NCBI RefSeq assembly: GCF_030846775.1
Contig: NZ_CP132910.1
Location: 3,134,001 to 3,198,000 of the forward strand
Source: Geothrix sp. 21YS21S-2
GTDB taxonomy: Bacteria; Acidobacteriota; Holophagae; Holophagales; Holophagaceae
Reading direction: 5' to 3'
DNA: 64,000 nt
Below the pieces are notes generated by a model. The model saw nothing but the letters and a program-made list of their open reading frames with translations. It ran no database searches and had not been told where the DNA came from. Positions within the stretch are counted from its first letter, which is position 1; the number at the start of each line of letters is the position of its first letter. The translations under genes and the position numbers were made by a program. Below, piece after piece: positions 23,746 through 34,011 of this stretch.

Positions 23746-24085
23746 GCTTGCGACCTCTGAAAACCCCACGCGAGGGGGACCTTCAATCGTATCACCTGCC
23801 CAATCCATTGCCTCCCCGAAGTCCGGCGGGGCCCGATGGTTCACAAGTTCAAGGGGTGGCGACAGAGGGGAAAAGGTTCCCGGCGCGGGGCAGGTCGGGG
23901 CACGGTTGGCGGATCGGGCCGGGGTCGTCGCCACCGCCCGGCGCGGGGGGGAAGCCGGAAGGCCCGGGGTCAGCAAAATCCAATAGACGTATTAAATTCT
24001 GCTAATTTTAGAATAATTTCAATCATAATTATTATAATTTTGTCTAGCATTAACACAGAATAGGCACTTTCTACCAGGAGATGCC
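23746..24085. other. Divergent spacer with GC-to-AT switch
   Basis: This 340-base stretch separates the divergent BI-1 and DUF1444-like genes. The left two thirds are very GC-rich and contain no convincing gene. From about 23975 the sequence turns sharply AT-rich up to 24055 and provides a promoter-like region for the rightward gene. Confidence 0.5.
24008..24038 (+). promoter_or_regulatory. Putative promoter of the gene at 24086
   Basis: A perfect TATAAT lies at 24033-24038 in an AT-rich stretch, with a weak TTTAGA about 19 bases upstream. It faces the gene at 24086, whose ATG follows an AGGAG. The -35 match is poor, so the call rests mainly on the -10 and the AT-rich context. Confidence 0.35.
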
Positions 24086-25075
24086 ATGAACATTCTTGGA
24101 TCCCTCGCCGGACACCTCAAGCGCCTCGCCACTCCCGCCGCCCGGCCCGCCCTCACCCTCGATGAGGCCCTTCCCCGCCTCCTTCCCAAGGTCCGACCCA
24201 GGTTCCTCCATGAGACCCTTGCCCTGCGCCCAGGCGCGGCGCCGCCCGAATTCCGGCCCCTGGCGGGCATCTTCGCCACCAGCCTTGTGGTGGACTTCCC
24301 CGACTGCGAACTGGATGTGGGACCGAAGCAACTGGCCTCCTGGGGCGCCGACTACGATGCCCTCCTGCAGAGGGCCCGGACGAACCTCCTCCAGCGGGGC
24401 GGCGGGGAGCGCTTCCTCCAGGTGCGGCCCGGCCTCTTCCGCTCCACCTGGCGGGACGCCCTGGACGGCAGCCGCATCCTGCTGCCCGGCATGCTCAAGG
24501 GTCTCGACCTCCCGGGCGAGCCCGTTGTGGTCCTGCCCGACCGGGACACGCTCCTGGTGGCGGGCTCGGAGGATCCCCGCGCCCTGGGCTGGCTCCTGGA
24601 GTTCGCCCTGGACGTCCTGGGCGGCACCCCGAGGTGGATGAACAGCTGCCCCCTCAGGCTCGCGCACTTCCAGTGGGAGCCCTGGGACGGCGGCCCGGAC
24701 CACCCCGCGGCCCCACTCCTGGCCCGCCTCCGCCGCCGGCGCCTCACCGAGGAGTACGCCGGCCAGAAGATCCTCCTGGACCGCCTCCACGGCAGGGAGG
24801 TTTCCGTGGCGCCGCTTCTCGTGACCGAGACGCCCTCGGGCGCCGTGCTCAGCTCGACCTTCCTCCCCGGGACCTCCGAGGAGGCCTGGCTCCCCGAGGC
24901 GGACCGCGTGGGACGCCTGGACGTAGGCGGCAGCCACCGCGCCTGCCAATGGTTCCCCTGGGACACCGCGCGGGCGCGGCTGGGAAGCCTCCTGGAGCCC
25001 ATGGGGATCTTCCCGGAGCGCTACCGGATCCGGGCCATGCCGGCGCCGGAGTTGCTGGCTTCCCTGCTGGAGTGA
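24086..25075 (+). CDS. Cytosolic protein of unknown function, possibly DUF1444-like
   Basis: 329 residues, ATG preceded by AGGAGATGCC. No signal peptide. Features: DEALPRLLPKVRPRFL near the N-terminus, VVVLPDRDTLLVAGSEDP centrally, and a Trp-rich segment WFPWDTARARLGSL near the end. The central DRDTLLV stretch and layout recall the YtpQ/DUF1444 family, whose function is unknown, but I cannot confirm this. It marks the left edge of the accessory block. Confidence 0.6.
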   Translation: MNILGSLAGHLKRLATPAARPALTLDEALPRLLPKVRPRFLHETLALRPGAAPPEFRPLAGIFATSLVVDFPDCELDVGPKQLASWGADYDALLQRARTNLLQRGGGERFLQVRPGLFRSTWRDALDGSRILLPGMLKGLDLPGEPVVVLPDRDTLLVAGSEDPRALGWLLEFALDVLGGTPRWMNSCPLRLAHFQWEPWDGGPDHPAAPLLARLRRRRLTEEYAGQKILLDRLHGREVSVAPLLVTETPSGAVLSSTFLPGTSEEAWLPEADRVGRLDVGGSHRACQWFPWDTARARLGSLLEPMGIFPERYRIRAMPAPELLASLLE

Positions 25076-25222
25076 TGCCAATCGGGTTTCCCGAGCCCCT
25101 GTCGCGTCCGGAGTCGCGTGGAGCGCACGCCGTCGGGAAGAACCCCGGACCCACGCGTTCCCGCACCTGAGCAACATGGACCGGGGTGGTCTCCCGAATG
25201 ATACCCATGATCGCCAGACTCT

Positions 25223-25579
25223 TTAGGGGGCCAGCACCGCCGGGTTGCTGGCAGACCGGAGCACGACGTTATGGTTCGGATTATTGGCGCTGTGGAATTG
25301 GCCCCATTGCAAGCACACCGCCGGGTCGGTGGTGATCGCGGAACCCAGCCTGCACGTCAGGCAGACAGCTAGATAATAAAGACCATTACTTGGTGTTCCC
25401 TGCATGTTCCCCACTTCAACACGCCTCTTCGGAATAGCGTCAAGCGCGGAATTCGAAGCGTCCGCCGCCGATCGGGTCATGTCGGCGAGTGGGCAGGAAA
25501 CCCCATCCCCGCATGCGCCGAGTGTTTGAGTGACGGCGAGGAGCATCGCTCCTTGCAAGGCTATGCTTCTTATGTTCAT
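25223..25579 (-). CDS. Small Cys-containing lipoprotein of unknown function
   Basis: 118 residues. The ATG is preceded by GGAGGA at 5 bases, a strong ribosome-binding site that supports a real gene. The N-terminus is a lipoprotein signal ending in TLGAC, with Cys23 as the likely lipid anchor. The mature part has Cys29 plus a CLTC pair and another Cys, so disulfides are possible. No family recognised. It is divergent from the inactive serine-hydrolase-like gene, and its 5' leader carries two hairpins. It may belong to the lanthipeptide block (for example immunity), but that is only positional inference. Confidence 0.65.
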   Translation of the reverse strand: MNIRSIALQGAMLLAVTQTLGACGDGVSCPLADMTRSAADASNSALDAIPKRRVEVGNMQGTPSNGLYYLAVCLTCRLGSAITTDPAVCLQWGQFHSANNPNHNVVLRSASNPAVLAP

Positions 25580-25596
25580 AACATTCCTCCAAGCGG

Positions 25597-25633
25597 GCCG
25601 AGTTGCTCGGCGTTTATGGGGCCATTCAGCCCC
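25597..25633 (-). promoter_or_regulatory. Two adjacent hairpins in the leader of the small lipoprotein gene
   Basis: GCCGAG-TTG-CTCGGC (25597-25611) and GGGGC-CATTCA-GCCCC (25618-25633) are perfect inverted repeats in the 5' leader of the minus-strand lipoprotein gene, ending 17 bases ahead of its start. They could regulate translation or mRNA stability. No known riboswitch class is recognised. Confidence 0.4.
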
Positions 25634-25824
25634 GTCACTAGGACCTGACGGGCAAAAATCAAAGGTTTCATTCGAATATCAAACAGCAGCATTAAAAGTC
25701 TTATAATTCTGACTGACGGAATGTTGAGGGCCTGCCGCTGCGCGAGCGGTTGGGCATCCGGCTGAGCCCGAACCTTCAGGGGCCGTCCCACACTGTGGGA
25801 GAGAGGGTGGCAAAGGGAGGTCAG

Positions 25825-27921
25825 ATGACGCAATCATGGCGAACCCACATCATCTTCGCCCTGCTGATGCCCCTTTGGGCGCATCCTGCGCCCGTCAGGG
25901 CAGGCGGGTTGCAGGATGTCCACTTTTTCGCATCTACCGAGGGAGCTGCCGCGGTCAAGGCGGCCATGGCCGAAACGGGAGCCACTTCCGTGGCCCTTGC
26001 CCTGGTCAACGGCCGCAAGTTCGTCTGGGAAGAGGCCTTCGGGTTCGCCGACGCCGCCGGGGAGGGTCCCGGTGCCAGGCTCATCGCCGCCAATTCGGAT
26101 ACACGGTTCGGCGTCGGAGAGGTAGGGAGGATCCTGGCCACCGTAGCCGTCCTGAAGCTAGCGGAAGAGGGCCGGTTCAGCCTGGATACCCCCGTGGCGG
26201 CACACCTCCCGGCCTTCCGCATGCTGTCGCCAGAGTACCGGCACATCTCCGTCCGGATGCTGCTGGGCCAGACTTCAGGAATACCAGGCACGGATCCACG
26301 TAGTCGATTCACCTCGGTGCCCTTTGCCGGCTATGCGGGCCAGGTGCTGGACGGCCTCGCGCTCCAGCGCCTCAATCATCTGCCGGGAATCCTGCCGGTA
26401 CCCTGTGGCGATGGCTTCACGGTCCTGCAGGAATTGGTCCAGGCTGTGACCGGGGTTGCCTACATCGATTATGCGAAAAGGGAGATTCTCGACCCGCTGG
26501 GAATGAGACATTGTGATTTCATCCCGGCTCCACGTCCACAGAACGATCCCTACGCCCGGGCTTTCGATGGCATGCGACGGTGTCCCCTTGAATTCGCCAA
26601 TGCCTATGCGTCATGCGGGTTCTATTCTTCGGCACCGGATATGGCCCGGCTCATGTCCATGCTCCTGGATGGCGGCAGCTTCAAGGGTGAACGAATCCTA
26701 TCGGAGGAGACCGTAAAGGAGATGGGACGCCAGCAACTCCCGCCAGAGGCCGAACCCCTTCCCTCACCGTTTACAGCCTTCGGCCTGGGTTGGGACACCG
26801 TTTGCCAACCCGCTCTTCGCGCTGCCGGGTACGAAGCCTGGGCGATCCGCGGGCAGACACCCCATTATGCCAGTGCCATGATCCTCATACCTTCGGAGCG
26901 GATGGGAATCTTCGTGGCCGGAGCCACGAAGCTGAAGGCCGATGCCCTGGTCCAGGTCGCTGAACGCATTCTGATCCGAGCCTTGGTCGAGAAGGGCTCC
27001 ATCCCGGAAATGCCCGCTCCTCCCGGACTGGAATTTCTGGCCGAAATCCAGGAGGAACCACGGGCGTTCCCCGACCTCCCCGGCATCTACAGTTCGCGGG
27101 AGCACACCTACAGGGTCAGGCCGGGCCGGTTCACCGGAACCCTGGACCTCGACCTTTACGAAGCTGGAGCCTCCACCTGGAAGCACCTTGCATCGGACAT
27201 GCGGCCCCGAACGGACGGATGGTTCATCCCGGGTGGGGAGAGTGGAACGGCCTACGCCTTCCTCCGTTGGCAGGGAAGGCTCTACCTCGCGTTGCGCACC
27301 GGATCCCGGTTCAGCATCGACAGCCGCATCGTAGCCGAGCGGGTGACCACAGGCGGAAAGCCGAGCGGTTTTTGGGAGTCCCTAAGGGGTGGGACCTGGG
27401 TACTCGTCAATGAATCCTTGGACAGCGAATTGTTCATTGCTGCCCCCTTCATTGCCCTCAAGTCCCTTCCTGGACTCCCGAATCCACTGTTTGTGCATAC
27501 GGTGGGTGCCTATCCGCTGGATTTCACATGCGATGCCTGCCCTGGGACCGCCATGCTGCGCATCCCGGGGCCTGCCGGGCAGGACCTGAACGAGGTGTGG
27601 GCCATGCAGCGCGGGGAGGAGGTGTGGCTCCGCTGCGCAGGCAGGGTCTTTAGACCGCTCGCCACCGTTCCGCTTCTACGGGATGGCGAAAACCCCCTGG
27701 CAACAGGGAAGGACGGCCACGTAGATTGGCGCGCAGTACCCGCTGGCGTCCATCATTTGGCCGTAAACGGTTTCGCGGCCTGGGCCCTCTTTGATTCCAC
27801 CTTTGGCCTCAAGGCGAAGCACGCGGGCCCTGGCACGGTGACCGTCCACAACGGCCTTGGAGTCTCCTTCCTGGCGCTTCACGGACCGCCAGGCTGCGTG
27901 GGATCGGTAAGGATGCGATGA
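25825..27921 (+). CDS. Exported serine-hydrolase (beta-lactamase/S12) fold protein, catalytic residues lost
   Basis: 698 residues. Signal peptide (THIIFALLMPLWAHPAPVRA), then a beta-lactamase/S12 domain over residues 40-400 and a C-terminal region of about 290 residues. Family landmarks are clear (TRFGVGEVGRILATVAVLKLAEEGRFSLDTPV cut into strands, ILDPLGM, CGFYSSAPDMARLM), but the active-site motifs are not: Ser-x-x-Lys reads Glu99-x-x-Arg102, the Tyr-x-Asn position reads Pro-Cys-Gly (193-195), and the His-x-Gly position reads Arg-Gly-Gln (342-344). The frame is intact and the ATG follows GGGAGG. It is therefore probably a binding or scaffold pseudoenzyme. It lies 342 bases upstream of the lanthipeptide precursor, same strand. 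Confidence 0.82.
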   Translation: MTQSWRTHIIFALLMPLWAHPAPVRAGGLQDVHFFASTEGAAAVKAAMAETGATSVALALVNGRKFVWEEAFGFADAAGEGPGARLIAANSDTRFGVGEVGRILATVAVLKLAEEGRFSLDTPVAAHLPAFRMLSPEYRHISVRMLLGQTSGIPGTDPRSRFTSVPFAGYAGQVLDGLALQRLNHLPGILPVPCGDGFTVLQELVQAVTGVAYIDYAKREILDPLGMRHCDFIPAPRPQNDPYARAFDGMRRCPLEFANAYASCGFYSSAPDMARLMSMLLDGGSFKGERILSEETVKEMGRQQLPPEAEPLPSPFTAFGLGWDTVCQPALRAAGYEAWAIRGQTPHYASAMILIPSERMGIFVAGATKLKADALVQVAERILIRALVEKGSIPEMPAPPGLEFLAEIQEEPRAFPDLPGIYSSREHTYRVRPGRFTGTLDLDLYEAGASTWKHLASDMRPRTDGWFIPGGESGTAYAFLRWQGRLYLALRTGSRFSIDSRIVAERVTTGGKPSGFWESLRGGTWVLVNESLDSELFIAAPFIALKSLPGLPNPLFVHTVGAYPLDFTCDACPGTAMLRIPGPAGQDLNEVWAMQRGEEVWLRCAGRVFRPLATVPLLRDGENPLATGKDGHVDWRAVPAGVHHLAVNGFAAWALFDSTFGLKAKHAGPGTVTVHNGLGVSFLALHGPPGCVGSVRMR

Positions 27922-28263
27922 TCGTTACCCGGAAGGGATAACCGAAGCATCGAGGAACCCTCGGCGGAGCGAGGTGGTGGAGCAAGCTGGCGATTCAACA
28001 GGGTTGCATCAAGCTGGTTCAAAGCACATCGGATAGGGTCCGTGTTTTTCGAGGACCGGAACCAGGGCCGTTTTAAACCAGCTAAGCAATCAAAATTTGA
28101 CGATTATCGCTCCCGCATAGGAACCTTCATCCTGGAATAGGTACTCAGGAGGGTACCTGGGGGCGATCGACGCCACGTGCGTCGATTTGTTAGCGCTAAT
28201 CATGAAATATGACCGTGCTCTGGTCGTCGAGATAGGAAGTTATCTGAAGAACAGGAGACCAAC
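27922..28263. other. Spacer between pseudo-hydrolase gene and lanthipeptide precursor
   Basis: 342 bases without a supported gene. A 34-codon ATG frame starting at 28202 overlaps the precursor start but has no ribosome-binding site. The right half holds three inverted repeats (annotated separately). No transposase remnant or tRNA was recognised. It should contain the promoter of the lanthipeptide genes. Confidence 0.5.
28139..28199 (+). promoter_or_regulatory. Three successive inverted repeats upstream of the lanthipeptide precursor
   Basis: AGGTAC-(8)-GTACCT at 28139-28158, ATCGACGC-CACGT-GCGTCGAT at 28166-28186 and the palindrome TTAGCGCTAA at 28190-28199 stand one after another, 65 bases before the precursor start. 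The middle one is an 8-base perfect stem followed by TTTGTT and could be a weak terminator or attenuator; the others look like operator-type dyads. Confidence 0.45.
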
Positions 28264-28542
28264 GTGGAAAAGCTTTCATTCAAGGCGGAGTCAATCATGC
28301 CTTTAAACAGCGTTTCCGATAGCGAAATGCAATGGGTTGTCGGAGGGACATCTCCAACACCAACAACAATTCGGCTCGTCAATAATACCCCCAGAATTCC
28401 TGATCAGGTAGATGTCTGGAAGAGACGTCTCGGTTCAGACTGGTGCCACCAACGTCCACAGCCACAGGCTCCGCCCGCAAGGCCGACCTCGCAGGGACCA
28501 GGCGGGCCAGGCGCAGGGAACTGGCCGACGTGCTGGTGCTAA
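28264..28542 (+). CDS. lanA: Class I lanthipeptide precursor (candidate LanA)
   Basis: 92 residues, GTG start with AGGAGA 5 bases upstream. The leader (residues 1-28) contains LSFKAES, a loose match to the FxLx recognition box of class I leaders, and ends SDSEMQWVVGG, a double-Gly cleavage motif. The 64-residue core has ten Ser/Thr and three Cys (61, 90, 92), a Pro/Gly-rich hinge (residues 65-85) and ends TCWC. LanC and LanB genes follow on the same strand, which makes it the natural substrate: Ser/Thr are dehydrated by LanB and Cys thiols added by LanC. The core does not resemble a lantibiotic I know. A different reading frame over its 3' half also stays open, so the C-terminal sequence needs proof. 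Confidence 0.75.
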   Translation: MEKLSFKAESIMPLNSVSDSEMQWVVGGTSPTPTTIRLVNNTPRIPDQVDVWKRRLGSDWCHQRPQPQAPPARPTSQGPGGPGAGNWPTCWC

Positions 28543-28584
28543 CCCCGCATATTATCCAATGGCTTTGGACTTATTACTCGCACC

Positions 28585-28617
28585 CAACCCAGTTTTGAAC
28601 TTGTCGGCATTGGGTTG
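28585..28617 (+). promoter_or_regulatory. Inverted repeat between lanA and lanC
   Basis: CAACCCA (28585-28591) and TGGGTTG (28611-28617) can pair around a 19-base loop. It may set the ratio of precursor to enzyme by partial termination or processing, as is usual in lantibiotic operons. Weak evidence: 7 pairs and no T-run. Confidence 0.25.
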
Positions 28618-28768
28618 TTGCTAGCTGAAGGATTTGAGCATTTTGCTCGTCCTGCCGCTGGATGGTCAGCAGTCTCGGGTCAACCGGAGAACAGACCGCG
28701 GCGTTAAAGACCAGGAGGGTCGAAGGGTCCACTCCCGACGGCCTTCCTGGGATCCAAGTTGGGAAGAA

Positions 28769-30040
28769 ATGAGAATGGGCCACATCTGGAAGGCGATCTT
28801 GACTGACAGGAATGCGGAATCGGCATGGGAAAGGATCTGGGAAATTTCTCGCGAAATTTCGGATATCAAATGCTGGGATGGAAAGGAAACCGGCCTTGCC
28901 CGAGGTGTTGCAGGCGGCGCCCTGTTCTTTGGCTACCTCGCCATGGCTACCGGCAGCATGGAGGCATTGCGGAATTGCAGACGACTTCAGGCGTCAGCCG
29001 CGAGGAGCCTCCCCTTTAGATCGACAGACACCTCACTTTTTGGAGGGTTTCCAGGCATTGCATGGGCGACGACCCACCTGAAGGACATGCTTGACCCCTT
29101 GGCAGAGGATCCCGCAAACGAGGTAGACGAAAATCTTCTGATTCGTCTCAACTGCCCGGAATGGCGCCAGTCCTATGACCTGATTATTGGCCTCGTGGGC
29201 CTCGGCATTTATGCTCTCGAACGCCTGGAGACCGGGAGAGGACGGCAGATTCTTGGCAGCGTCATTAGGCACCTGGGCCAGACGGCGGTGATCCGGAGCG
29301 ATGGCATCGCTTGGTTCACTCCATCCTGGCAACTTCCTGAATGGCAGCTCCAATTCGCACCTGAAGGCTGTTGGGACTTGGGATTAGCCCATGGCATCCC
29401 TGGCGTGATTGCATTACTGGGAAGGGCGGTTCTTGCAGATGTTGAAAAGGCAATGGCTGCGCCTCTCCTGGAAGGCTGTGTCAGGTGGCTCTTGTCTCGG
29501 CGCAACCCCGACGGTGGCCATGGCTCCTTTGCCAACATCCTTCCAAAGGGAAAGGAGGACATACCCTCTTGCAGCAGGATTGCTTGGTGCTACGGAGACC
29601 TTGGCCTGGCGATGGCCCTGCTTATGGCAGCGAAGGACGCATCCCGGCCCGACTGGGAAGCAGCGGCCCTTTCCATCGCCCAAAATGCGGCCAGACGACC
29701 TCTCGAAGCCTCTGGAGTCCGCGATGCGTGCTTGTGCCATGGCGCATCAGGAAATTCCCTACTTTTTTTGCGCCTTTATTTTGCTACGGGTGACCCTTGT
29801 TTCCACGAAGCAGCGATGGATTATCTTGGTGAAACAATAGCCTTTCATTGTCCAGGCAAACCCTTTGGCGGCTTCCCAACTTTCATGCTGGATGAAAGGC
29901 GTGTCCATGGAATCCATCATCTACCAGGCGTCCTGGAGGGAAACGCAGGTGTAGGACTGGTATTGCTTGCTGCAGCATCCGACCTGGAGCCCACGTGGGA
30001 TAGGCATCTCTTCTTGTCTGCCAGCCCGTGCAGGCGATAA
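28769..30040 (+). CDS. lanC: Lanthionine synthetase C family cyclase
   Basis: 423 residues from the ATG at 28769, the normal LanC length. The zinc ligands are present: Cys274 in WCYGDLG and Cys323-His324 in LCHGASGN; the acid/base His208 is in GLAHGIPG. The double alpha-toroid glycine motifs (GGFPGIAW, GNAGVGLVLL) are spaced as in NisC. It catalyses Michael addition of Cys to dehydro-residues in the cytosol. An in-frame TTG at 28634 would add an Arg-rich, unrelated tail and its ribosome-binding site is too close; ATG 28775 is also possible. Next gene on the strand is a small membrane protein. Confidence 0.92.
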   Translation: MRMGHIWKAILTDRNAESAWERIWEISREISDIKCWDGKETGLARGVAGGALFFGYLAMATGSMEALRNCRRLQASAARSLPFRSTDTSLFGGFPGIAWATTHLKDMLDPLAEDPANEVDENLLIRLNCPEWRQSYDLIIGLVGLGIYALERLETGRGRQILGSVIRHLGQTAVIRSDGIAWFTPSWQLPEWQLQFAPEGCWDLGLAHGIPGVIALLGRAVLADVEKAMAAPLLEGCVRWLLSRRNPDGGHGSFANILPKGKEDIPSCSRIAWCYGDLGLAMALLMAAKDASRPDWEAAALSIAQNAARRPLEASGVRDACLCHGASGNSLLFLRLYFATGDPCFHEAAMDYLGETIAFHCPGKPFGGFPTFMLDERRVHGIHHLPGVLEGNAGVGLVLLAAASDLEPTWDRHLFLSASPCRR

Positions 30041-30099
30041 CGTCCGCTTTGTTGTTGAGCTAGCCCCACTGTTCACGTGCGGCATCCCGCTCTCCTTCC

Positions 30100-30124
30100 T
30101 TCCACATAAAGATTGAATGTGGAA
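30100..30124. promoter_or_regulatory. Inverted repeat in the lanC-CPBP spacer
   Basis: TTCCACAT-(9)-ATGTGGAA is a perfect 8-base dyad in the AT-rich 160-base spacer after lanC; a smaller dyad, GTTCA-AACGG-TGAAC, follows at 30146-30160. No T-run follows, so an operator or processing site is more likely than a terminator. Confidence 0.3.
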
Positions 30125-30200
30125 CGAAACTCGGTTTCCAGAAGTGTTCAAACGGTGAACGAAATCGCATATTAATTAATTTATATGATTGGAGACTGTT

Positions 30201-30245
30201 ATGGCATATGCGAATTTTAGTAATTCGGAATGTTGCGCATTCTGA
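30201..30245 (+). CDS. Possible 14-residue peptide or upstream ORF
   Basis: ATG at 30201 has GGAG with 6-base spacing, better than the overlapping CPBP start at 30208, which is 13 bases from the same GGAG. It encodes MAYANFSNSECCAF and then stops. It may couple or limit translation of the membrane protein, or be spurious. Too short to judge by homology. Confidence 0.25.
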   Translation: MAYANFSNSECCAF

Positions 30246-30756
30246 TTGTGCCACAATGTTGCATCAACTTTTTAAATCACTACTAGATCCAGGATATTCA
30301 TTATTATCTTATGTCATTAAATCAATAATTATCATGGAATTTCCAGGATGGATTTTTAGCTGTGTCTTATTCTTATGTCAGACCGCTGGCTGGTACGCCC
30401 CTGACATGAGGCCCTCACCCTTTACCGAGTGGCCCTTTTTCGTGATGGTGCTGGTTGGCCCTGTGCTGGAATCCTTCCTTTTGGCTGGGCTTGTATGGGT
30501 TATTGGCAAGGCGTTGGTCGATCCAGTGCTCATTTCCGTTATTTCAGGAATTGCGTGGGGTGTTTTGCACGCATGGGGGGCACCAAACGCACTGGAATAT
30601 GCCCTGATTCTCGTTTGGTCAGGTTATGACTTTTTTATCTTTACAATGGCCTTCCTGGCCTGGAAATCCAGCTCCTTCTGGTACGGTTTCTTCGCTGCGA
30701 TGCTTCCGCACCTGGCTCACGACGGGCAATGGAAAATGCTCACCTTGATCTGTTGA
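30208..30756 (+). CDS. CPBP-like intramembrane protease family protein
   Basis: 182 residues, about four to five membrane segments. The CPBP (CAAX protease/bacteriocin processing) pattern is recognisable: GPVLESFLLAGLVW at the first motif, IAWGVLHAWGAP with the second-motif His, and a late MLPHLAHD His. The first motif normally reads Glu-Glu-x-x-x-Arg; here only one Glu remains (Glu-Ser) and no Arg follows, so proteolysis is doubtful. CPBP proteins in bacteriocin clusters give self-immunity or process leaders. It lies between lanC and lanB in AT-rich sequence. The start is uncertain: ATG 30208 has a distant GGAG. Confidence 0.6.
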   Translation: MRILVIRNVAHSDCATMLHQLFKSLLDPGYSLLSYVIKSIIIMEFPGWIFSCVLFLCQTAGWYAPDMRPSPFTEWPFFVMVLVGPVLESFLLAGLVWVIGKALVDPVLISVISGIAWGVLHAWGAPNALEYALILVWSGYDFFIFTMAFLAWKSSSFWYGFFAAMLPHLAHDGQWKMLTLIC

Positions 30757-30780
30757 AACCGTCCTTGGGGAGGCCATTTC

Positions 30781-33700
30781 GTGGCAGATCAAACCGATAA
30801 ATTCCGGATGGACGATTTTTTTTGTTTCCGCACACCCCTCCTTTCCTACGGGGAATGGCGGTCCTGGTGCGCCGGACTCCAGGCCGCCGCATGCGTGGAA
30901 GATCCAGCAAGGTTTGAACGAGCCTACGATCAGGATTGCCGGATCCTGCGGGATCGATTGAGAAGGCTGACCATGCGGCCGGAAATCCTCGAAAGCCTGC
31001 AGGTGGCCTCACCCGACCTCGTGGAGAGCCTTGAACGCTGGCAGGAGGACCCGCTCGGACCCAAAGGACAGCGGTCGGAATTGGCGCTGGTTCGCTACTT
31101 CGCGCGAATGTGCACCCGTTCCACCCCCTTTGGCCTCTTTGCCGGGCACGGAATGGGGCGGATGGGCGAGGCGACGCGGCTGGAGGTTGCGCCCAGGGAG
31201 GCATGGTGGCGCCGTTCGCGCCTCGACATGGGGTACCTGTGCGAACTGGTGCATGGGCTGCGCGGGGACCCCGGTCTACAGGACAATCTGGAGTTCAGGA
31301 CCAATTCCAGCCTATACCGGGTGGCCAACCGCTTGAGGTACGTGGCGGTCCACATGAAGAAAGGAACGCGCCATCTTGAACTGATGGAGGCCATTCCGGA
31401 CGGGCCGCTGGAAGCGGTGCTTGCCCATGCGAGGGAGGGCTCATCCCTTGCGGAACTGGCCCGCAGGCTGGTGGCCGAGGATCTCCAGATGGGAGAGATC
31501 CGGGAGTATCTGCGGGAACTCATCGGACGGCAGGTCCTGGTCTCCAACCTGGAACCGGCCACCACAGGCCCCGAGCCCCTTGCGGCCTGCATCCGAAGCC
31601 TTGCGCGTTCACCCTCGACCCTCCCTGTCGCCACAGCCCTTCTGGAGGCTTCACGATTTTTGAACGATCTGGACCTCAAGGGCCTAGGCAACAAACCCCA
31701 GGCCTATCTGGCGCTGGTCGAGCGCCTCAAGGACCTTCCCGCAGGTGTGGACCCCACCCGCCTCTGGCAGGTGGACCTTTTCCAGCCTGGGGAGAAACTC
31801 ACCCTGAGTCCGGCCTTGAGGGACGAGATCCTGAAGGCGGTCCACCTCCACATTCGGATGAGCCCAAGGAGCCCACGAGACCCCTTCCAGGCCTTCAAGG
31901 AGACGTTCAAACGTCGCTACGCGAACCGTTGGGTCCCACTGGCCGAGGCCCTGGATCCTGAATGTGGCGTTGGCTGGTTTGGAGACGGAGGCACCCGACC
32001 CCTGGCCACTGCGTTGCTCGACGGCCTTGGCTTGCGGCCCGGAATGGATTCCCGGCCGGTGGAGGCATGGCTTGCGCCCAGGGAGGTGCACCTGCTCAAG
32101 CGTGTCCTGGCCCTGCAAGGAACCGGTGAGCGCGTGCTGGAATTGCAGGAGCAGGACCTGGCGGCCATGTCCGGGGAGGGTCCGCTCCCCCCCTTGCCCC
32201 ACTCCTTCAGTTGCATGGTGGAGCTGGAAGGCGCCTCGCCCAGCGCCGTGGATGGCGGCCCCTTCAGGATCCTGTTCCATGGGGCCGCAGGCCCGTCAGC
32301 AGCACGTATGCTCGGACGCTTCTGCCACGGGGATCCAGTGCTTTCCAAAGAAGTGCGTCGCCACCTTGAGGCGGAAGCGCTGCTAAATCCGCATGCCATC
32401 CATGCGGAAATCGCCCACCTTCCCGAGGGACGCATGGGAAACGTGCTCGCAAGGCCCGTTCTCCGTTCCTTCGAAATCCCCTACCTCGGCTCTTCGGGAG
32501 CCGACCCGCACCAGTGGGTCCTCCTCGAGGACCTCTTCGTCGGGGTGGTGGAGGACCGGGTAGTGCTCTGGTCCCGGCGCCTGGATCGGGAGGTCCTGCC
32601 CCGCCTCTCCAGCGCCGCGGCCTATCACGACAGGGGCAGCGAGGCCTACCGCTTCCTGGCCTCCCTCCAGGATCAGGGGGTGCTGGGAACCCTGGGCTTC
32701 CAATGGGGAAACCTTGCGGGCGAGGCCGCCCTTCCGCGCGTGGTGTGCGGAAGAGTGGTCCTCGCCCGGGCCCAATGGCGCTGGAGCCCAGCGGTCCTGG
32801 CGGCGCTCCGGAAGGAACCGTGTGCCCGGGAACGGTTCCTGGCCATTCAACGGCTTCGCCGTGAGCAGGGTCTTCCCCGCCACCTTGTGTTCCCCGAGGG
32901 GGATAACGAACTGCCCGTGGACCTGGACAACGCCCTCTGTGTGGAAGCCTTCTGGGGACTCGTCAAGCAGCGCGAGAGCGTCACCCTGCTGGAGGACTTG
33001 CCCGATGGTGACCATCTGGTGGCAACCGGGCCGGATGGGCCCTACCGGCACCAGCTTGTGCTGGCCTTTCTGGCCGAACCCCGCGATCCTCCGCCCGCGG
33101 TGCCTTCCCCGATCCTTTCGGAGGTCACGGTCCCTCATGCCCCGGGTTCGGAATGGCTGTACGCGAAGATCTACACCGGCCTGCACTCGGCTGCGGCCCT
33201 GCTGGGCGGCGCGCTGGGTTCCTTCATCCAGGGGATCATGGCTTCCGGAGATGCGGACCGATGGTTCTTCCTCCGCTACGCCGATCCGGATCCCCATATC
33301 AGGCTTCGTTTCCACGGGGCCCCGGACCGGATCTGGGGACGGGTCTTCCCGGGCCTGCGACAGGTTCTGGGTCCGAACCTCGCAAACGGATCGGTGTGGC
33401 GTCTCCAGTTGGATACCTATGAACCGGAAACCCTTCGTTACGGCGGCTTGAGCAACCAGGAACGGGCGGAACGGATATTCATGGCCGACAGCGAAGCGGC
33501 ACTGGGCATCCTCGGCGGCAACCCGGGAGCGGAAGGGGAGCGGAGGCGTTGGTGCACGGCCCTGGCCAGCGTCGATGCCTACTTCACGAGTGCGGACCTT
33601 TCCGTGGCCCAACGCCTGAAGAACGTACGGGACCGCTGCGCCGGGTTCGAGAAGGAGTTCTCCCTTTCGGGTCCGGCTCTGGGGCAACGTTTCCGCGAGG

Positions 33701-34011
33701 AGAAGAATGGGCTTGAGGCCCTGCTGGATCCCCGTCCTCAGGACCCAAGGTCCCGGGACCTGACCTGCCTGGAGGCAAGGACCGGGCGGATCCGGCCGAT
33801 CCTAAGGGAGATGGGGTTCCTGGCATCGGTGGGCGCCTTGACCGCCCCCATGGACGCCATCCTGGCGAGCCTGATCCACATGTCCGTGAACCGCCTGCTG
33901 TCCTCCGCCCAAAGGGCACAGGAGGCGGTGATTTATCACATGCTTGTCCGTTTGTATGAAGGGAGGCTCGGCCGAGCCCGGACGGGGGCCAAGGATCCCC
34001 CTACTTGTTGA
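30781..34011 (+). CDS. lanB: Full-length lantibiotic dehydratase (LanB)
   Basis: 1076 residues, GTG start with GGGGAGG 7 bases upstream. The N-terminal glutamylation domain has RMCTRSTPFGLFAG (residues 109-122) and a DNELPVDLDN segment near 705-714; the C-terminal elimination domain (SpaB_C, about residues 790-1065) has EWLYAKIYTG, WFFLRYADPDPHIRLRFHG and RLQLDTYEPETLRYGG. It activates Ser/Thr of the precursor with glutamyl-tRNA and eliminates glutamate to give dehydroalanine/dehydrobutyrine. Fusion of both domains is normal for class I. Its 3' end overlaps the convergent mscS-type gene by 11 bases, marking the right edge of the block. Confidence 0.93.
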   Translation: MADQTDKFRMDDFFCFRTPLLSYGEWRSWCAGLQAAACVEDPARFERAYDQDCRILRDRLRRLTMRPEILESLQVASPDLVESLERWQEDPLGPKGQRSELALVRYFARMCTRSTPFGLFAGHGMGRMGEATRLEVAPREAWWRRSRLDMGYLCELVHGLRGDPGLQDNLEFRTNSSLYRVANRLRYVAVHMKKGTRHLELMEAIPDGPLEAVLAHAREGSSLAELARRLVAEDLQMGEIREYLRELIGRQVLVSNLEPATTGPEPLAACIRSLARSPSTLPVATALLEASRFLNDLDLKGLGNKPQAYLALVERLKDLPAGVDPTRLWQVDLFQPGEKLTLSPALRDEILKAVHLHIRMSPRSPRDPFQAFKETFKRRYANRWVPLAEALDPECGVGWFGDGGTRPLATALLDGLGLRPGMDSRPVEAWLAPREVHLLKRVLALQGTGERVLELQEQDLAAMSGEGPLPPLPHSFSCMVELEGASPSAVDGGPFRILFHGAAGPSAARMLGRFCHGDPVLSKEVRRHLEAEALLNPHAIHAEIAHLPEGRMGNVLARPVLRSFEIPYLGSSGADPHQWVLLEDLFVGVVEDRVVLWSRRLDREVLPRLSSAAAYHDRGSEAYRFLASLQDQGVLGTLGFQWGNLAGEAALPRVVCGRVVLARAQWRWSPAVLAALRKEPCARERFLAIQRLRREQGLPRHLVFPEGDNELPVDLDNALCVEAFWGLVKQRESVTLLEDLPDGDHLVATGPDGPYRHQLVLAFLAEPRDPPPAVPSPILSEVTVPHAPGSEWLYAKIYTGLHSAAALLGGALGSFIQGIMASGDADRWFFLRYADPDPHIRLRFHGAPDRIWGRVFPGLRQVLGPNLANGSVWRLQLDTYEPETLRYGGLSNQERAERIFMADSEAALGILGGNPGAEGERRRWCTALASVDAYFTSADLSVAQRLKNVRDRCAGFEKEFSLSGPALGQRFREEKNGLEALLDPRPQDPRSRDLTCLEARTGRIRPILREMGFLASVGALTAPMDAILASLIHMSVNRLLSSAQRAQEAVIYHMLVRLYEGRLGRARTGAKDPPTC

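Follow-up and report, generated by a model that had tools for sequence, protein, structure and literature searches.

A 92-codon ORF stands just ahead of LanC and LanB genes in Geothrix sp. 21YS21S-2, in a stretch of 64,000 nucleotides that was analysed as a whole and is called the window here. A preliminary description had drawn attention to its unusual core. Does this ORF encode a lanthipeptide precursor, and of which kind? The ORF is real and most likely encodes a class I LanA, whose product would be a ring-bearing compound of antimicrobial type; the precursor is a member of a small, uncharacterised group, so far seen in one bacterial genus, which is served by machinery of known kind. The whole explanation that we favour, with a probability of about 0.65, is that of a class I LanA with a double-Gly leader on which LanB and LanC make small rings across a hinge, with export in trans by a C39 exporter and protection by a CPBP-like protein.

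The precursor and its leader

The features of the locus are collected in Table 1. The translation of the precursor gives the leader VEKLSFKAESIMPLNSVSDSEMQWVVGG and the core TSPTPTTIRLVNNTPRIPDQVDVWKRRLGSDWCHQRPQPQAPPARPTSQGPGGPGAGNWPTCWC. The core is 64 residues long and contains three Cys (61, 90 and 92), ten Ser/Thr, 12 Pro and six Gly, which agrees with the double-Gly leader, core length, Cys positions and Ser/Thr count first reported for it. An AGGAGA sequence, a good ribosome-binding site, precedes the start codon; a promoter scan upstream of lanA found nothing. The preliminary description had itself named a frameshift or sequence error in the core as a reason to drop the case. This was checked and rejected. 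The remaining two frames over the core hold no Cys-rich alternative reading, and same-genus homologues are Pro-rich too, that of genome G001 right after its TxxC motif; such an artefact is thus unlikely. Searching curated families with the precursor gave no match, and no convincing further copy was found within its own genome (G000).

Table 1. Coordinates in the window of the features discussed in the text.
Feature	Position	Strand	Evidence or remark
Genome-specific island, about 10.1 kb, holding the cluster	23885..33999	.	Comparison by blastn with three loci of the same genus
LanA precursor	28264..28542	+	92 aa, GTG start, leader 1-28 ending GG, core 29-92
Leader peptide, residues 1-28 (KLSFKAESIMPL...VVGG)	28264..28347	+	GG at 27-28; spaced as in the LxLxKx5L GG leader of the literature
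Conserved linear segment, residues 29-57 (TSPTPTTIR...DVWKRRLG)	28348..28434	+	Six Ser/Thr, no Cys
Proposed first ring motif, Ser58-Asp-Trp-Cys61	28435..28446	+	TQGC (G001) and SASC (G004) at the equivalent place relative to the Pro stretch
Pro/Gly-rich hinge, residues 62-88	28447..28527	+	Residues 62-89 include 8 Pro and 5 Gly
Proposed terminal ring motif, Thr89-Cys90-Trp91-Cys92	28528..28539	+	Cys92 has Thr at -3; the G403 precursor ends in RSCWC
LanC cyclase, 423 aa	28769..30040	+	PF05147 E 6e-34; in-frame TTG start at 28634 possible
CPBP/Rce1-like membrane protein, 182 aa	30208..30756	+	37% over 143-144 aa to the protein adjoining the G001 precursor
Full-length LanB dehydratase, 1076 aa	30781..34011	+	PF04738 E 1.6e-145, PF14028 E 1.9e-58

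The LxLxKx5L motif with a GG end has been described for Bacteroidetes precursors of class I, whose clusters often encode a C39 protease (PMC7268733). Fitted by eye, the window leader keeps this spacing, but F replaces L and A replaces K. The corresponding NCBIfam family NF038153 (lant_leader_L1a) did not match the window precursor at E <= 1, and two related precursors score just under its cut-off.

LanB and LanC

The gene neighbourhood supports the earlier claim of a double-Gly-leader LanA adjoining LanC and LanB. It has what a class I cluster should have: next to lanB and lanC lies a small precursor with a leader and a Ser/Thr/Cys-bearing core, the cyclase is a stand-alone LanC with Zn ligands, and the separate LanB carries the glutamylation and elimination domains (PF04738 and PF14028) in one protein. 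LanC is matched by phmmer to 8byk (1.4e-20) and NisC (2.9e-8), and its motif residues are Asp137, His208, Cys274 and Cys323-His324, with Cys274, Cys323 and His324 assigned as Zn ligands by motif. In MadB, R89, R93, T95, D128, D308, R483, R822, R864 and H1005 are listed as essential (PMC12241602). The aligned LanB is identical at all of the first eight; H1005 lies beyond the aligned stretch, the LanB histidine being supported by the HMSVNR motif only. Judging by these alignments and motifs, the residues needed for catalysis are present in both enzymes.

The two enzymes appear to differ in their history. In the LanB tree the window protein groups with that of G001 and then with that of G005, with full support. 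In the LanC tree the G001 protein groups with that of G005 and not with that of the window. Topology tests for LanC rejected a group of window and G001 alone (p-AU 0.002) and did not reject one of all three together (0.146). Since the window LanB is the sister of that of G001 and the window LanC is not, the cluster is probably a mosaic.

It is worth mentioning that full-length LanB genes without LanC form a clade of their own (L057, L059, L062, L063, L064 and, in the own genome at C1:1734687-1737665, L061), and that each of them adjoins a conserved pair of genes for a histidine kinase and a LytTR response regulator. The own genome also has a short ORF (L069, C1:1058100-1059029) that resembles the LanB elimination domain only (thiopeptide-type), a match without the glutamylation domain.

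Relatives of the precursor

No paper describing lanthipeptides of Holophagaceae was found among the open-access literature searched. A single-sequence search of 60 relatives returned one clear homologue, in G001 of the same genus (E 9.7e-7; 43% over 58 aa; profile E 1.5e-41, with a profile that itself included the G001 sequence). The two-row profile, run on 396 genomes from the phylum, gave nothing further of weight. The G001 precursor, MRKLSLETEVIMPLSGQVVSETDAVAGGTTPATPTIVRWSQINCVYTPQNLDNWRRRIQNHTQGCPPPPPYSSATNCTRNRVC, adjoins a homologue of the CPBP-like gene, and the same genome has a LanB 52% and a LanC 34% identical to those of the window. Both precursors share the leader (13/28 identical), a segment with TxPxTPT...DxW(K/R)RR (12/29 over residues 29-57) and an (S/T)xxC followed by prolines. 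Beyond residue 57 only the order of motifs is common to them: (S/T)xxC, prolines, Thr, Cys, Cys. A dehydro-rich N-terminal tail had been suggested for the core, and the six Ser/Thr between residues 29 and 57 are indeed there. However, as this segment is nearly as conserved as the leader, it may serve for recognition or form a second leader part, and so may not belong to the mature product.

The Cys-Trp-Cys end that had caught the attention in the window is present at its C-terminus, but is not supported as a defining feature of the group: the closest and only full-length homologue, that of G001, ends in CTRNRVC. The preliminary description had held that homologues lacking this end would speak against its case, and on this point its view is not supported. 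The Pro/Gly-rich stretch fared better. The G004 precursor (same genus), MKLQLNVETLEVLLADHSAEVHGG...SASCPKPPPPPQPAPKGP...PPPPPSTHFCLPKR, adjoins LanC and LanB and shares the ring-Pro-ring plan, and a Pro hinge after (S/T)xxC is found in G000, G001 and G004. With two other precursors of the genus having it, the hinge is more than a one-off. G005, again of the same genus, has two shorter precursors without the hinge. In G403, which carries another LanB/LanC cluster of the same family, a short precursor ending in RSCWC lies beyond the exporter genes.

Ring motifs and the hinge

Two of the three Cys of the window precursor have a Ser/Thr at -3 (S58-C61 and T89-C92; shuffle p = 0.059). Shuffles gave p = 0.016 for G004 and p = 0.58 for G001, which is not enriched. 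Statistical support for a ring map is thus modest, and the argument from these sequences is rather the motif that the three precursors (G000, G001 and G004) share before the Pro stretch, which reads PPPPP in G001 and PPPPP twice in G004. For Cys90 the nearest Ser/Thr is the adjacent Thr89, and the next ones stand 14-15 residues upstream. A ring between neighbours such as Thr89 and Cys90 is unlikely, so Cys90 should be free or bonded far upstream. We can propose a ring map with S58-C61 and T89-C92 on either side of the Pro/Gly hinge, in which C90 would be free or belong to a larger ring. As a general rule, (S/T)xxC before the hinge and Thr/Ser...Cys near the C-terminus would describe these precursors better than CWC.

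This could mean that the genus has a distinct class I architecture, made of two small terminal thioether rings, a rigid polyproline-like spacer between them and a long conserved linear segment ahead, with trans export by a shared chromosomal C39 exporter; we regard this as a tentative idea. If the ring-hinge-ring plan is true, class I lanthipeptides would gain a natural case of rings held apart by a proline spacer. Nisin ring fragments have been conjugated chemically to synthetic polyproline (PMC7715017).

The island, export and self-protection

The cluster lies in an island whose site is empty in three genomes of the same genus. By blastn, G005 matches the window to 23883 and again from 34000, with 13 bp between; the flanks end at 23884 and 34008 in G002, with about 40 bp between, and at 23860 and 34046 in G001, with about 70 bp. 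In G004 different genes occupy the place between the same flanks. Besides the lanthipeptide cluster, the island contains a gene of unknown function, a gene for an S12-type hydrolase and a small lipoprotein-like ORF. GC drops from about 0.65 to 0.52 at lanA, is 0.44-0.54 around the CPBP gene and is 0.65 in lanB. No tRNA was found at the island and no clear terminal repeats worth naming; insertion by way of either was therefore not retained. The hydrolase, encoded upstream of lanA (25750-27921), is a serine hydrolase of S12 type (PF00144) with 723 aa, and its start resembles a signal peptide. It was left out as a candidate protease of the cluster, having no homologue in the sister loci compared.

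There is no exporter, leader peptidase or regulator gene in the island. In G004, G005, G288 and G403, genes for HlyD, a C39 ABC protein and a second ABC protein adjoin LanB/LanC (domains assigned by profile for G005). G001 has the same set, but its C39 gene is split: at L055 (11602-19901) an IS21 element and a ParB-like gene interrupt the exporter gene of this sister cluster. The own genome has a single C39 gene, at C1:4412038, 1.25 Mb from the island and with HlyD and second ABC genes adjoining. This set is 38-49% identical to that of G005 and of the type linked to the sister clusters. Export in trans via this exporter would be plausible, but the exporter may serve something else.

The CPBP-like protein scores 16.4 bits against PF02517, below the gathering cut-off of 22.4 (E 0.011). 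It has Glu, His, His and Asp in common with its G001 counterpart, and the linkage of lanA with a CPBP gene is seen in two genomes, those of the window and of G001. The AlphaFold2 model (pLDDT 46) is unusable. A role in self-immunity is predicted and probable.

Proposed biosynthesis and alternative explanations

In the favoured explanation, LanB would read the leader (1-28) and dehydrate Ser/Thr of the core with glutamyl-tRNA. LanC would then join Cys61 with Dha58 and Cys92 with Dhb89. The two (i,i+3) rings so formed would be small, and the rigid Pro/Gly hinge, residues 62-88, would keep them apart. Cys90 would stay free or pair with residue 75 or 76 in a large ring. The C39-domain exporter encoded elsewhere in the genome would cut after Gly28 and export the product, and the CPBP-like protein would protect the producer.

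The conservation of residues 29-57 allows another processing scheme, in which the cut at GG28 is only the first and a second protease acts near DxW(K/R)RR (50-55), leaving the last 35-37 residues (ring, hinge, ring) as the mature product. The conserved block ends in a dibasic or tribasic stretch and what follows diverges. Two-step leader removal is known for class II lanthipeptides such as mersacidin (PMC9127955), a precedent for such a scheme. However, the G001 segment has a Cys and a Ser (WSQINC), suggesting modification there, the segment is lacking in G004 and G005, and a second protease was not identified in the island; we consider a bipartite leader rather unlikely. It is less probable still that the cluster is decaying or unused, an island of recent origin in this genome whose exporter has been lost and whose precursor, with three Cys and a long low-complexity core, is drifting. 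The uneven GC would fit, as would an island lacking the exporter that the G004, G005, G288 and G403 clusters have; with the split C39 gene of G001, the linked exporter would have been lost twice. All four genes are nevertheless open, the residues checked in LanB and LanC are conserved, the ribosome-binding site is good and the genome encodes elsewhere an exporter of this type that is intact.

It is also conceivable that LanB dehydrates the core and that not all Cys form thioethers, a Cys61-Cys90 disulfide closing one large loop across the hinge at both ends. The lack of a Ser/Thr close to Cys90 other than Thr89 is in line with this. Yet Cys61 has its Ser at -3, placed as in TQGC of G001 and SASC of G004, and LanC is intact, so this seems the least probable of these schemes.

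Comparison with known systems

The chemistry of LanB and LanC and their catalytic residues are common to the window and to nisin and gallidermin. In contrast, the 92-aa sequence has neither an FxLD leader nor the lipid II-binding SxxxCTP(G/S)C, and the island has no NisP/NisT or LanFEG/LanRK genes. Pinensins are class I products of the GG-type leader group whose LanB is split into two proteins (PMC7268733), whereas in the window both domains sit in a single LanB protein. The earlier view that the core is typical of neither nisin nor pinensins is thus borne out.

Closer are the LxLxKx5L/GG class I lanthipeptides of Bacteroidetes (NF038153; Walker et al. 2020, PMC7268733), with the same leader spacing, a GG end and LanB plus LanC. 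Homologues of the window LanB in Segetibacter, Chitinophaga and Sphingobacteriaceae are 26-33% identical. The C39 exporters of this group recur in the sister clusters, but not in the island itself, and the window precursor differs in a leader missed by NF038153 and in a 64-aa core with a Pro/Gly hinge and three Cys. The sister clusters of G005, G004, G403 and G288, all of the same family, have LanB/LanC of the same clade or near it, the same leader spacing and the HlyD, C39 ABC and second ABC genes. Compared with the window, the cores of G005 are 41-42 aa long without a Pro hinge, that of G403 has 20 aa, and five Cys and two runs of Pro occur in the G004 precursor.

The sister clusters, with their unlinked precursors and exporters, offer a way of testing export in trans. 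GG-leader precursors with related leaders were seen at a distance from the single LanB/LanC cluster of their genome, in G403 (L116 9162-9539, L134 and L136) and in G288 (L127 and L135), and this hints that one enzyme set serves unlinked precursors there.
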